64,000 nucleotides of DNA from Promicromonospora thailandica (GTDB lineage Bacteria > Actinomycetota > Actinomycetes > Actinomycetales > Cellulomonadaceae), in assembly GCF_024171955.1 (NCBI RefSeq), contig NZ_JAMTCS010000009.1:124001-188000 (forward strand), written 5' to 3'. Below the pieces are notes generated by a model. It did not search any database. It was not told where the DNA came from and saw only the letters and a program-made list of their open reading frames with translations. A program made the position numbers and the translations under genes. This document shows positions 58,420-61,913 of the stretch, one piece after another; within the stretch, counting starts at the first letter, position 1; each line of letters begins with the position of its first letter.

Positions 58420-58775
58420 CGCCCCGCCGAGACCTGGTGTCGCGTCGCTGCCGTGCTCCGGCGCGGCGCGCGAGATCTGGTGCAGCGACCCTTGGCGGCT
58501 CCTGGTGCGCGCTGAGATCTGGGGGCCGTGCCCCGCCATGCTGCTGGCGCCCCGCCGAGATCTGGGGTCGCGTCGCCGAGATCTGGGGTCCGCGCCGAGA
58601 TCTGGCAGTGCGCCACCAGATCTCAGCGTCAGCGCCAGATCTCAGCGGCGCGACCCCAGATCTCGGCGACGGAGCGGCGGTCCGGCTGCGGCAGTGCAGC
58701 GGCGACACCAGATCTCGGCGCGGCGGCCTCCGGCGTCAGCGGCGCGACACCAGATCTCGGCGGCGGAGCGCCCGC
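58420..58775. repeat. Mirror-symmetric AGATCT repeat array
   Basis: Ten exact AGATCT hexamers plus one AGACCT occur. Those at 58430, 58473, 58515, 58558, 58579 and 58598 are followed by GG; those at 58618, 58637, 58658, 58710 and 58752 are preceded by CC, so orientation flips at about 58610. Spacing mirrors outward from the centre (19, 21, 43, 42 on one side; 19, 21, 52, 42 on the other). A 20-bp unit, CGCCGAGATCTGGGGTCGCG, occurs in exact inverted copies. The array fills the region 3' of the cystathionine gamma-synthase gene, so a strong, multi-armed terminator is possible. Confidence 0.9.
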
Positions 58776-58786
58776 CGTCCCCCCCG

Positions 58787-59980
58787 TCAGAGGCGGGACA
58801 GGGCCTGCTCGACGTCCTCCAGGAGGTCCGTCACGTCCTCCAGGCCCACCGACAGGCGCACGATCGACGGCGGCACCTCCGCCTCCGTGCCACGCACCGA
58901 CGCGTGCGTCATCTCGCTCGGGTAGTTGACCAGCGACTCCACGCCGCCGAGCGACTCGGCCAGGAGGAACACCCGGGTCGACTCGGCGAAGGTCCGCGCT
59001 GCGGCCTCCCCGCCGGCCAGGTCGAGCGAGATCATGCCGCCGAACCGCGACATCTGGTGCGCCGCGACCTTGTGGCCAGGGTGGTCCGGCAGGCCCGGAT
59101 ACAGCACGCGGCCGACGGCGGGGTGGTGCACCAGGCGCTCGGCGAGGGTCTGGGCGTTCTCCGAGTGGCGCTGCATCCGCACGGCGAGCGTCTTGATGCC
59201 GCGCGTGGTCAGGAACGCGTCGAACGGGCTGGACACGGCTCCCGCCGCGAACTGGACGTAGCGCACCTGCTCGGCGAGCTCGTCGGCGCCGTCGCGCAGC
59301 ACGACGGCGCCGCCCACCACGTCGGAGTGCCCGCCCAGGTACTTGGTCGTGGAGTGCACCACCACGTCGGCGCCGAGGTCGAGCGGGCGCTGCAGCGCGG
59401 GGGAGGCGAACGTGTTGTCCACCACCAGGAGCAGCCCGTTGTCGTGCGCGAGCTGGGCCAGCGCGGGGATGTCGCTGATCTTCATCAGCGGGTTGGACGG
59501 CGTCTCCACCCACAGGATCTTCGTCTCGGGCCGGACCGCGGCGCGCACGGCGTCGAGGTCCGAGGTGTCGACGGTCGTGTGCGCCACGCCGGCCTTGCCG
59601 TGCACCGTGCGCACGAGGCGGTGCGTGCCGCCGTAGACGTCGTTCGGCACGAGCACGTGGTCCCCGGGCGCGACGACGGCCCGCAGCAGCGCGTCCTCGG
59701 CGGCCAGGCCGGAGGCGAACGACACGCCGTGCGCGCCGCCCTCGATCGCCGCGAGCTGCTCCTCCAGGGCGGTGCGCGTGGGGTTGCCGCCGCGCGAGTA
59801 CTCGTACCCGCCGCGGAGGTTGCCGATGCCGTCCTGCGCGTAGGTGGACGTGACGTGGATCGCCGGGATGGCGTCCCCGGTCGACGGGTCGGGGTGCTGC
59901 CCCGCGTGGATCGCGAGGGTGTCGAACCGGCTGGGCCTGACGTCGTTCGTGCCGGCGTCGTTCGTGCTGGCGTCGTTCAT
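58787..59980 (-). CDS. metB: Cystathionine gamma-synthase/lyase-type PLP enzyme
   Basis: This is a 397-residue Cys/Met-metabolism PLP enzyme. VVHSTTKYLGGHSDVVGG carries the PLP lysine, and IHVTSTYAQDGIGNLRGGYEYSRGGNPTR is the family start. It either makes cystathionine from O-acylhomoserine or splits it to cysteine; the neighbouring cystathionine beta-synthase and cysteine-type leader favour a role in the reverse route to cysteine. The first 12 residues come from a 15-bp tandem repeat (NDASTNDAGTND). It lies 45 bp downstream of cbs. Confidence 0.93.
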   Translation of the reverse strand: MNDASTNDAGTNDVRPSRFDTLAIHAGQHPDPSTGDAIPAIHVTSTYAQDGIGNLRGGYEYSRGGNPTRTALEEQLAAIEGGAHGVSFASGLAAEDALLRAVVAPGDHVLVPNDVYGGTHRLVRTVHGKAGVAHTTVDTSDLDAVRAAVRPETKILWVETPSNPLMKISDIPALAQLAHDNGLLLVVDNTFASPALQRPLDLGADVVVHSTTKYLGGHSDVVGGAVVLRDGADELAEQVRYVQFAAGAVSSPFDAFLTTRGIKTLAVRMQRHSENAQTLAERLVHHPAVGRVLYPGLPDHPGHKVAAHQMSRFGGMISLDLAGGEAAARTFAESTRVFLLAESLGGVESLVNYPSEMTHASVRGTEAEVPPSIVRLSVGLEDVTDLLEDVEQALSRL

Positions 59981-60025: not shown

Positions 60026-61393
60026 TCAGACCGCGAGGTAGTCGAGCAGGTCGGACCGGGACACGACGCCGAGCGCCTTGCCGCCGTCGGTCACGAGCAG
60101 GGCGGTCTCGCCGGTCAGGGCCGCCCGCAGCGTGCCGACCGGCTCGTTGACGCCGATGAGCGGCAGGGGGCGGCCGATGAGCCCGCCCACCTCGTCCGAC
60201 AGGTTCGCCTTGCCGGCGAACACGCCGTCGAGCAGCTCGTCCTCGTGCACGGCTCCGGCGATCTCGCCGAGCACCACGGGCGGCTCCGCGGTGAGCACGA
60301 GCAGCTGGGAGACGCCGGACCGCGTCATCCGGTCGATCGCCTCGCGCACCGTGTCCGTGGGGTGCACGTAGAGCACCGGCGGGGTGCGGTCGGCCTTGGC
60401 GGCCAGCACGTCCGCGACGGTGTGGTCCTCGATCGCGGGAGAGAACCCGTAGGACCGCATCCAGGTGTCGTTGAAGATCTTGCCCAGGTAGCCGCGGCCG
60501 CCGTCGGGCAGCAGCACCACGACCACGTCGTCCGCGGTCAGGTCGCGTGCCGCCCGGAGGGCGGCGACGACGGCCATGCCGCTGGAGCCGCCCACGAGGA
60601 TGCCCTCCTCCCGGGCGAGCCGGCGCGTCATCGCGAACGACTCGGCGTCGCTCACCGCGATGATCTCGTGCGGCACGCTCGGGTCGTACGCGGTGGGCCA
60701 GAAGTCCTCGCCCACGCCCTCGACGAGGTAGGGCCGGCCGGTGCCACCGGAGTAGACGGACCCCTCGGGGTCGGCGCCGATGATGCGCACCCGGTCGCCC
60801 GAGACCTCGCGCAGGTAGCGGCCGGTGCCGGTGATGGTGCCGCCCGTGCCGACGCCGGCGACGAAGTGCGTCACGCGGCCCTCGGTGTCGCGCCAGATCT
60901 CGGGGCCGGTCGTCTCGTAGTGGGAGCGCGGCCCGTTGGGGTTGGAGTACTGGTCGGGCTTGAAGGCACCCGGGATCTCACGCACCAGGCGGTCGCTCAC
61001 CGAGTAGTAGGACTCGGGGCTGTCGGGCGCCACCGCCGTCGGCGTCACGACGACCTCGGCGCCGTACGCGGTCAGCACGTTGCGCTTGTCCTCGCCCACC
61101 TTGTCCGGCAGCACGAAGACACAGCGGTACCCGCGCTGCTGGGCCACCAGCGCCAGGCCGACGCCGGTGTTGCCCGAGGTGGGCTCGACGATGGTGCCGC
61201 CGGGCCGGAGCTTGCCCTCACGCTCGGCCGCGTCGATGATGCGGCCCGCGATACGGTCCTTGGAGGAGCCGCCGGGGTTGAGGTACTCGAGCTTGACGAG
61301 CACCGTCGCGTCGGTGACGCCCTCGGTGACGTGGCCGAGCCGGACCAGGGGGGTGTTGCCGACGAGCTCGACGACAGAATTGACGTACTGCAC
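60026..61393 (-). CDS. cbs: Cystathionine beta-synthase
   Basis: This is a 455-residue enzyme joining serine and homocysteine to cystathionine. The PLP part (about 1-320) carries LNPGGSSKDRIA with the PLP lysine, EPTSGNTGVGLA and VAGVGTGGTITGTGRYL; two CBS motifs form the C-terminal 115 residues. GTG 61393 is chosen: the family N-terminus (MQYVNSVVELVGNTPLVRLG) begins there and AGGAAGAG precedes it. Its ribosome-binding site is complementary to a polycysteine leader 60-90 bp upstream. Confidence 0.95.
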   Translation of the reverse strand: MQYVNSVVELVGNTPLVRLGHVTEGVTDATVLVKLEYLNPGGSSKDRIAGRIIDAAEREGKLRPGGTIVEPTSGNTGVGLALVAQQRGYRCVFVLPDKVGEDKRNVLTAYGAEVVVTPTAVAPDSPESYYSVSDRLVREIPGAFKPDQYSNPNGPRSHYETTGPEIWRDTEGRVTHFVAGVGTGGTITGTGRYLREVSGDRVRIIGADPEGSVYSGGTGRPYLVEGVGEDFWPTAYDPSVPHEIIAVSDAESFAMTRRLAREEGILVGGSSGMAVVAALRAARDLTADDVVVVLLPDGGRGYLGKIFNDTWMRSYGFSPAIEDHTVADVLAAKADRTPPVLYVHPTDTVREAIDRMTRSGVSQLLVLTAEPPVVLGEIAGAVHEDELLDGVFAGKANLSDEVGGLIGRPLPLIGVNEPVGTLRAALTGETALLVTDGGKALGVVSRSDLLDYLAV

Positions 61394-61458
61394 CTGTTTC
61401 TCTTCCTGTTCTGTGCGCGCGACGGCGCGCGCGGGGGACTGACGGACCGGGAGGGTGG

Positions 61459-61491
61459 TCAGTGACAGCAACAGGAGAGCGGTGCGAGCAC
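61459..61491 (-). CDS. Polycysteine leader peptide (cysteine-responsive attenuator)
   Basis: An 11-codon frame encodes MLAPLSCCCH and stops 65 nt before cbs. The GTG start is preceded at 6 nt by TACAGT (61503-61498), so the transcript would begin at the start codon. Codons 5-8 (CTCTCCTGTT, 61479-61470) can pair with the cbs ribosome-binding region AACAGGAAGAG (61410-61400), with one bulged A. A 7-bp hairpin (61415-61432) lies between. Mycobacteria use such leaderless polycysteine ORFs to sense cysteine; here a ribosome stalled on scarce Cys-tRNA would keep the site open. This role is inferred. Confidence 0.75.
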   Translation of the reverse strand: MLAPLSCCCH

Positions 61492-61497
61492 GTCGCC

Positions 61498-61503
61498 ACT
61501 GTA
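61498..61503 (-). promoter_or_regulatory. Predicted -10 box of the leader-cbs transcript
   Basis: TACAGT (read on the minus strand) lies 6 nt before the leader GTG, giving a TANNNT -10 with a transcription start at the codon. The -35 region is weak. The promoter sits just after the DUF2277 stop codon. Confidence 0.55.
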
Positions 61504-61517
61504 GCGGCGCGGGCCGC

Positions 61518-61841
61518 TCAGTGCGAGTGCGCGATGCCCAGCTCGTGCATCCGCTCATGCTCCTCGCGGTCCTTGATGCGCTGCGCGATGCGCGCCTGGA
61601 CCTCCGCGCGGCGCAGCGGCGGCACCGTCTTGGGCGGCTGACGGCGTTCGGGCAGCTCGTCGAGCAGGCGCGTCACGATGTCGGCGATCTCGGCGGTCGC
61701 CCGCTCCACGGGGTCACGCGTGGCGTCGCTGACCTTCGTCACACCCGTCACCTTGCGCACGAACTGCAGGGCGGCGGCCGTGATCTCCTCGTCGGTGGCG
61801 GCGGGTTCGAGGCCCCGCAGCGTGGTGATGTTCCGGCACAT
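61518..61841 (-). CDS. DUF2277 protein
   Basis: This is a 107-residue protein with the DUF2277 signature: the start MCRNITTLRGLEPAATDEEI, then AALQFVRKVTGVTKVSDA. The C-terminal 40 residues are charged and helical. The family is widespread in actinobacteria and functionally unknown. It lies upstream of the cbs operon, with its stop 27 bp from the leader start. Confidence 0.87.
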   Translation of the reverse strand: MCRNITTLRGLEPAATDEEITAAALQFVRKVTGVTKVSDATRDPVERATAEIADIVTRLLDELPERRQPPKTVPPLRRAEVQARIAQRIKDREEHERMHELGIAHSH

Positions 61842-61913
61842 GTCTCGACGGTACGCCGGGTGCCGCCGCCCCGGGAGGGCGCGGGGCGGCGGCAGCGCGG
61901 CGTCAGTGCCTCG

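Follow-up and report, generated by a model that had tools for sequence, protein, structure and literature searches.

The window analysed here, a 64-kb stretch of the Promicromonospora thailandica genome, carries on its minus strand a cystathionine beta-synthase gene (cbs) and a neighboring gene of the cystathionine gamma-synthase/lyase family (cgl-like). A very short, cysteine-rich ORF lies upstream of cbs. The features of the locus are given below in the order in which they are read on the minus strand.

61518-61841, same strand as the leader: DUF2277 gene, with its 3' end 26 bases before the leader GTG
61503-61498, minus strand: -10-like box TACAGT, 6 nt upstream of the leader GTG, read from the sequence
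61491-61459, minus strand: leaderless-looking leader ORF, MLAPLSCCCH, with GTG start and TGA stop; putative 5' end placed by the box spacing
61465-61473, minus strand: Cys codons TGT TGC TGT, the putative stall site and the core of the anti-RBS strand in the P. thailandica leader
61410-61400, minus strand: AACAGGAAGAG, holding the cbs Shine-Dalgarno sequence, read from the sequence
61402-61407, minus strand: AGGAAG, the Shine-Dalgarno core of cbs
61393-61391, minus strand: GTG start of cbs, read from the sequence
60026-61393, minus strand: cbs, cystathionine beta-synthase, with a GTG start; TIGR01137 above cut-off, PALP and CBS domains
58787-59980, minus strand: cystathionine gamma-synthase/lyase family gene (cgl-like); NCBIfam NF005871 above cut-off

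The initial annotation had described a TACAGT box, a 6-nt gap, a GTG and the peptide MLAPLSCCCH on the minus strand, and all of these were present when we re-read the sequence. The codons of the leader ORF (61491-61459, minus strand) are GTG CTC GCA CCG CTC TCC TGT TGC TGT CAC TGA. The leader GTG is 98 nt from cbs, and a spacer of 65 bases follows the leader ORF, which is probably located at the start of the operon mRNA. A consensus scan of positions 61300-61650 found neither a TTGACA-type promoter pair or -35 consensus nor an intrinsic terminator with a T run before cbs. An Rfam scan of 60900-61900 gave two matches, both far below their gathering scores, and none at gathering score was obtained in scans of four loci. 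A known Rfam regulatory RNA was therefore rejected as an identification.

The leader precedes genes of cysteine and sulfur metabolism, cbs and the cgl-like gene, which form a putative operon. Within 1.5-kb flanks, a cgl-like gene is found 3' of cbs at 25 of 25 leader-bearing loci, compared with 66 of 80 loci without a leader. Upstream of cbs, DUF2277 was found within the same flanks only at the 7 genus loci included among 105 loci. The operon had been assigned to reverse transsulfuration; cbs and the cgl-family gene do adjoin, while the direction of the second enzyme is undecidable from sequence, and we consider the assignment likely. Just past the 3' end of the cgl-like gene, at 58422-58762, short copies of CCGAGATCTGG are clustered, with at least four in one orientation and then several in the opposite one. 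The window has 10 matches to this sequence where 0.5 would be expected, and seven of the 10 fall within the cluster.

We scanned both strands of the window for a TANNNT box followed after 4-9 nt by a start codon and a short ORF containing Cys-Cys. The single match was the cbs leader, whether the ORF was limited to 38 or to 30 codons. In 6.4 Mb of simulated DNA with the trinucleotide make-up of the window, the same scan on one strand found one such ORF (limit of 30 codons) and none with three adjacent Cys. The observation of a cbs leader is confirmed as real, and the initial annotation understated it. Two more TGYTGYTGYCRNTGA sites occur in the genome (L200 and L201), with no box-plus-ORF combination around either, and no leader was found before the cysK-like paralogue in the 13 loci scanned.

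A cbs gene of the P. thailandica type is present in 11 of the 13 genus genomes searched; the other two have only cysK-like matches, with 46-47% identity or weaker. TACAGT, a gap of 6-7 bases, GTG-CTC and a peptide ending in CCC-His or CCC-Arg occur at all 11 genus cbs loci. Among the genus leaders TCCTGTTGCTGT is kept apart from a Ser-to-Ala change in L091, and AACAGGAAG, at the Shine-Dalgarno core, is unchanged in 11 of 11 loci. Leaders of 9 and of 10 codons both occur in the genus, so the length varies by whole codons.

Similar leaders of 7-14 codons were identified at 18 further cbs loci, in Microbacteriaceae, Occultella and one genome of the same family. Their peptides include VLLSLCCR, VNISRSCCRR, VFVIPSCCRR, VLRCCRP and MVLCTRLCCC. 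Of the 80 named cbs loci, 15 had leaders in the strict scan (ORF of at most 30 codons); one of the 15, L004, duplicates the record of a genus locus and was excluded from the distinct leaders. In the same family the strict scan detected a leader at 1 of the 79 loci scanned out of 93 cbs matches, 14 having been left out. On the reverse strands of all 170 upstream regions, two of which were shorter than 400 bases, the strict scan gave no leader. Three more loci, found under a relaxed rule, have a box and an ORF with Cys-x-Cys; these three leaders beyond the genus differ in this respect from the adjacent Cys codons otherwise present near the ORF end. Five loci with a Cys-rich ORF but no box were excluded from the leader counts. 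In the leaders beyond the genus the TANNNT box is 6-7 nt before the start, in a scan that required the box but allowed 4-9 nt. The comparison across relatives that the initial annotation had proposed thus found the Cys run and the box-to-GTG spacing kept in the genus and in relatives.

The 170 regions contain 33 box-plus-short-ORF combinations, nearly all of which belong to 30 loci with Cys leaders. Their reverse strands contain 11 such combinations and no Cys leader, the relaxed rule included. When 19 other residue doublets were tried, LL, SS, RR, TT and II were found, all within Cys leaders except one LL. For a later set, 393 genomes of the class were drawn, 309 had a cbs match and the upstream DNA of 29 loci was examined. 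Leaders were present at 8 of these 29 loci, all among the nine best-scoring relatives, and at none of the 29 on the reverse strand. Most of the cbs loci examined, in the 170-region set and the later set, are without such a leader. By eye, three of nine leaderless relatives (L007, L012 and L018) have a TANNNT-like box some tens of bases from cbs with no leader between.

The choice of Cys codon in the leaders is unusual. TGT makes up 38 of 46 Cys codons in the 18 leaders beyond the genus, compared with 10 of 136 in the relatives' cbs genes (Fisher 4e-22, a rough value given the non-independence of codons in related species). The share is 22 of 33 in the genus leaders and 19 of 24 in the leaders of the later set. 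TGT is rare in these genomes, and five window genes have 2 TGT among 13 Cys codons (2:11). The P. thailandica leader alone has two TGT among three, which is not significantly different from the window genes. TGT is also frequent in leaders with little predicted RBS pairing (L036, L059 and L219), so selection may have acted on slow decoding in addition to pairing.

The first 115 bases of the putative transcript have a predicted folding energy of -51.5 kcal/mol (z -4.94), and none of 200 shuffled sequences folded as well. In the predicted fold, nearly the whole leader ORF forms a helix with the cbs RBS and start codon, and this helix closes a three-way junction with these elements:

61465-61491, minus strand: predicted sequestering helix, 5' strand, spanning almost all of the leader ORF
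61385-61414, minus strand: 3' strand of the predicted sequestering helix, comprising ACAG, the Shine-Dalgarno sequence in AACAGGAAGAG, the cbs start codon and the next codons
61438-61463, minus strand: predicted inner hairpin A, ACTGAC/GTCAGT, at the leader stop
61415-61432, minus strand: predicted inner hairpin B, GCGCGC, G+C-rich, with no T run after it

The predicted pairs are GUGCU with AGUAC, GCACC with GGUGC (the cbs start codon included), and CUCUCCUGUU plus CUGU, the latter from the last Cys codons, with ACAG-AACAGG-A-AGAG. A 10-bp match with a bulge between CTCTCCTGTT and AACAGG(A)AGAG, as first described, is present, but its extent was underestimated, since a longer predicted helix, of which this match is the central part, reaches over the start codon. 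The antisense element had also been placed within the Cys codons. Here the whole ORF is antisense, although Cys codons do form the core in some lineages: five leaders from the Agromyces-Leifsonia group, as well as L112, pair with the RBS through them, and elsewhere the pairing falls on other codons.

An RNAalifold consensus of the 11 genus leaders has the same form as the single-sequence fold. The consensus structure has 97.5 percent of cells paired, and slid versions of it have 20-49 percent, a result that is partly expected because the structure was derived from the same 11 sequences. Only 2 of 33 consensus pairs have changed on both sides, both in hairpin B and none in the main stem, whose pairs hardly vary in the genus. 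Covariation therefore gives the stem no support, and we rejected it as proof of the main stem. As an alternative, we compared RBS-ORF pairing among leaders whose sequences have diverged beyond alignment.

The share of the RBS paired to the ORF is 0.43-0.71 in the 11 genus leaders, against shuffled means of 0.19-0.28; taken singly, 6 of the 11 reach the 5% level (60 shuffles). The mean share in 17 leaders beyond the genus is 0.47; shuffling the ORF and the spacer lowers it to 0.15 (Wilcoxon p 0.0005). L056, a near copy of L036 with a share of 0.0, was omitted from this test. A share of at least 0.42 was found in 12 of the 17, compared with 23 of 138 leaderless upstream regions, and little RBS-ORF pairing was found in 5 of the 17. 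In the later set, 7 of 8 leaders have a share of at least 0.45 and one has little pairing. The initial claim of leader-RBS pairing holds as a prediction in all 11 genus leaders and most of the others. The fold z is at or below -2 in 4 of the 18 leaders beyond the genus. Synonymous recoding under a usage null gave pairing as good in at most 5% of cases for 9 of 11 genus leaders, with a codon table slightly off owing to one window gene counted out of frame. The uniform null, which is unaffected by this, gave at most 5% for 11 of 11 genus leaders and 5 of 18 others.

We consider it quite probable that the cbs-cgl leader is a cysteine-responsive, ribosome-mediated translational attenuator. In mycobacterial systems of this type, stalled ribosomes reportedly block sequestration of the downstream RBS, and the computed structures agree with RBS sequestration of that kind. 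The leader ORF and its conservation, the spacing of the box, the conserved capacity for pairing and the bias in Cys codons are all read in the sequences; to these the proposal adds a putative start site, ribosome stalling and a cysteine response of a given sign and size. Judging from the box spacing, transcription would start at the leader GTG, and the ten-codon leader would be translated by a 70S ribosome. With ample Cys-tRNA the ribosome would complete the leader and depart, and the freed leader ORF would pair with the cbs Shine-Dalgarno sequence and start codon, so that the three-way junction would lower expression of cbs and the downstream gene. With scarce Cys-tRNA the ribosome would pause at TGT-TGC-TGT and mask the antisense strand, leaving the RBS open and allowing cbs-cgl to make cysteine. 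The parts of the earlier interpretation that are open to a test by sequence came out mainly in its favor.

In a folding model of the 11 genus leaders, the mean unpaired fraction of the Shine-Dalgarno core is 0.20 when the ORF is free, and the start codon is closed. With a ribosome on the Cys codons the core is 0.52-0.58 unpaired, the start codon still being mostly paired (0.13-0.21 open). The core is 0.47 open with an initiating ribosome and 0.65 with a terminating one; this similarity means that the model cannot separate stalling from occupancy. The proposal of cysteine sensing draws on the conserved Cys run and on precedent.

The same model result could reflect translational coupling, in which translation of a leader of any amino acids would open the cbs RBS with no sensing of cysteine, as a ribosome anywhere on the leader, initiating or terminating included, frees the Shine-Dalgarno core. 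We regard this as improbable, since the Cys run persists where other leader residues and the DNA differ and since the leader stands before a sulfur operon and has a strong TGT preference. Transcription attenuation, in which the leader ribosome would decide intrinsic or Rho-dependent termination before cbs, is a common mode among leader-peptide attenuators; a 2005 study (PMC1262725), in its cysteine section, weakly suggested Rho for the cys leaders of mycobacteria, and hairpin B is G+C-rich. It seems unlikely at this locus, where a terminator-like site is absent from 61300-61650 and where, in the genus as in most of the relatives tested, it is the RBS itself that is predicted to pair.

The short ORF could also have arisen by chance within a structured 5' leader whose signal is something else, a protein or a metabolite. 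The very stable leader fold and the absence of a match at gathering score in the Rfam scans (60900-61900 and four loci) are compatible with such an origin. The simulation predicts about one such ORF in 6.4 Mb, but the ORF is found before cbs repeatedly, in lineages with differing folds, and we consider a chance origin highly improbable. Returning to the translational attenuator, its most compact form is a doubtful but possible one in which sensor, start site and repressor would be a single 27-nt stretch, the leaderless ORF itself, with its start codon, being antisense to the cbs RBS and start. If this is true, initiation on the sensor itself and expression of the target gene would be turned off by one helix, and the leader would act as a self-gating, all-or-none switch for cysteine that passes between genera with the operon.

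A tree of 105 CBS proteins, made by a quick method with SH-aLRT supports, grouped the genus proteins with those of Agromyces and other Microbacteriaceae on branches with 88, 98 and 99 percent support. Eighteen of the 19 same-family CBS proteins in the tree were apart from the genus group; the 19th, L112, is leader-bearing. The leader label changes 8 times on the tree, compared with about 22 times in shuffles. The placement of the genus cbs with the Microbacteriaceae and the small number of leader changes indicate that the cbs operon was probably exchanged between families together with its leader. That cbs is nearer to Agromyces than to most cbs of its own family, and is absent from 2 of 13 genus genomes, also suggests operon transfer. 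Three records in the tree (L061, L068 and L082) have odd titles: Vibrio cholerae and Sporosarcina records have Arthrobacter-like cbs, and the Rhodococcus-titled one was placed in Cyanobacteriota by the tree tool. These three are probably mislabelled or misread.

In M. smegmatis, genes are controlled by attenuation through upstream leaderless ORFs with contiguous Cys codons, and ribosome speed on these codons is described as setting downstream translation (Canestrari et al. 2020, Mol Microbiol 114:93), and Shell et al. (2015) listed candidate Cys leaders before cysA2, Rv0485 and nirA (PMC4633059). This work bears out the earlier statement that cysteine-sensing leaderless ORFs are known in mycobacteria. 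The cbs leaders are like these in being leaderless-looking, having Cys codons and preceding cysteine or sulfur genes, and differ from the ORFs described there in their target (cbs-cgl), their lineages and their length of 7-14 codons. In the genus leaders almost the whole ORF is the predicted anti-RBS strand.

Seliverstov et al. (2005) predicted Cys leaders before the cys operons of Mycobacterium and Propionibacterium acnes and also before Bifidobacterium longum cbs (PMC1262725), the last being, as here, a Cys-run leader upstream of cbs. The cysteine section of that paper reports no conserved terminator hairpins in the mycobacterial regions, suggests Rho, and names no leaderless start, RBS pairing or Micrococcales species. 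The uORFC-8-2 motif before cysS in Rhodobacterales (PMC8632094) is similarly a structured leader whose uORF contains tandem Cys codons; it differs in ending in an apparent intrinsic terminator, and hence in using transcription attenuation, and in being dominated by UGC. The novelty claimed for a Cys leader before a cbs operon is weakened by the 2005 B. longum prediction, as given in PMC1262725, and by the mycobacterial work. Among the matches listed in our literature search no paper dealt with such a leader in Promicromonospora or Microbacteriaceae, and a search of PMC11540073 and PMC9426449 for terms on leaders and attenuation gave nothing relevant. The device is best filed, on present sequence comparisons, with the leaderless poly-Cys attenuators, at what would be a new operon and in new lineages.

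A scan of six stretches round sulfur genes besides the window identified another candidate leader.

G000:C6 about 163778-163882 (L197:10779-10883), minus strand, outside the window: second Cys-rich, leaderless-looking ORF

This ORF ends in TCACDRCRSCLH (CACDRCRSCLH in the P. thailandica genome) and stands before a nitrite/sulfite reductase gene, with a cysH-like gene next in line. The ORF is present in each of the 13 genus genomes (13 of 13), always with ACDxCRSC, and TANNNT lies 7 bases before its ATG in the 12 where the alignment reaches far enough.

If these interpretations are correct, cysteine attenuation by leaderless poly-Cys ORFs would extend from the mycobacteria to another actinobacterial order and to the cbs-cgl (transsulfuration) operon. 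The cbs leader is very small and well conserved, with natural variants and with close relatives in which no leader was detected, and could be used to study the tuning of codons, stalling and RBS pairing. Together, the cbs leader and the leader of the sulfite reductase-cysH genes suggest a gene set that would be co-ordinated by the speed of the ribosome on Cys codons.
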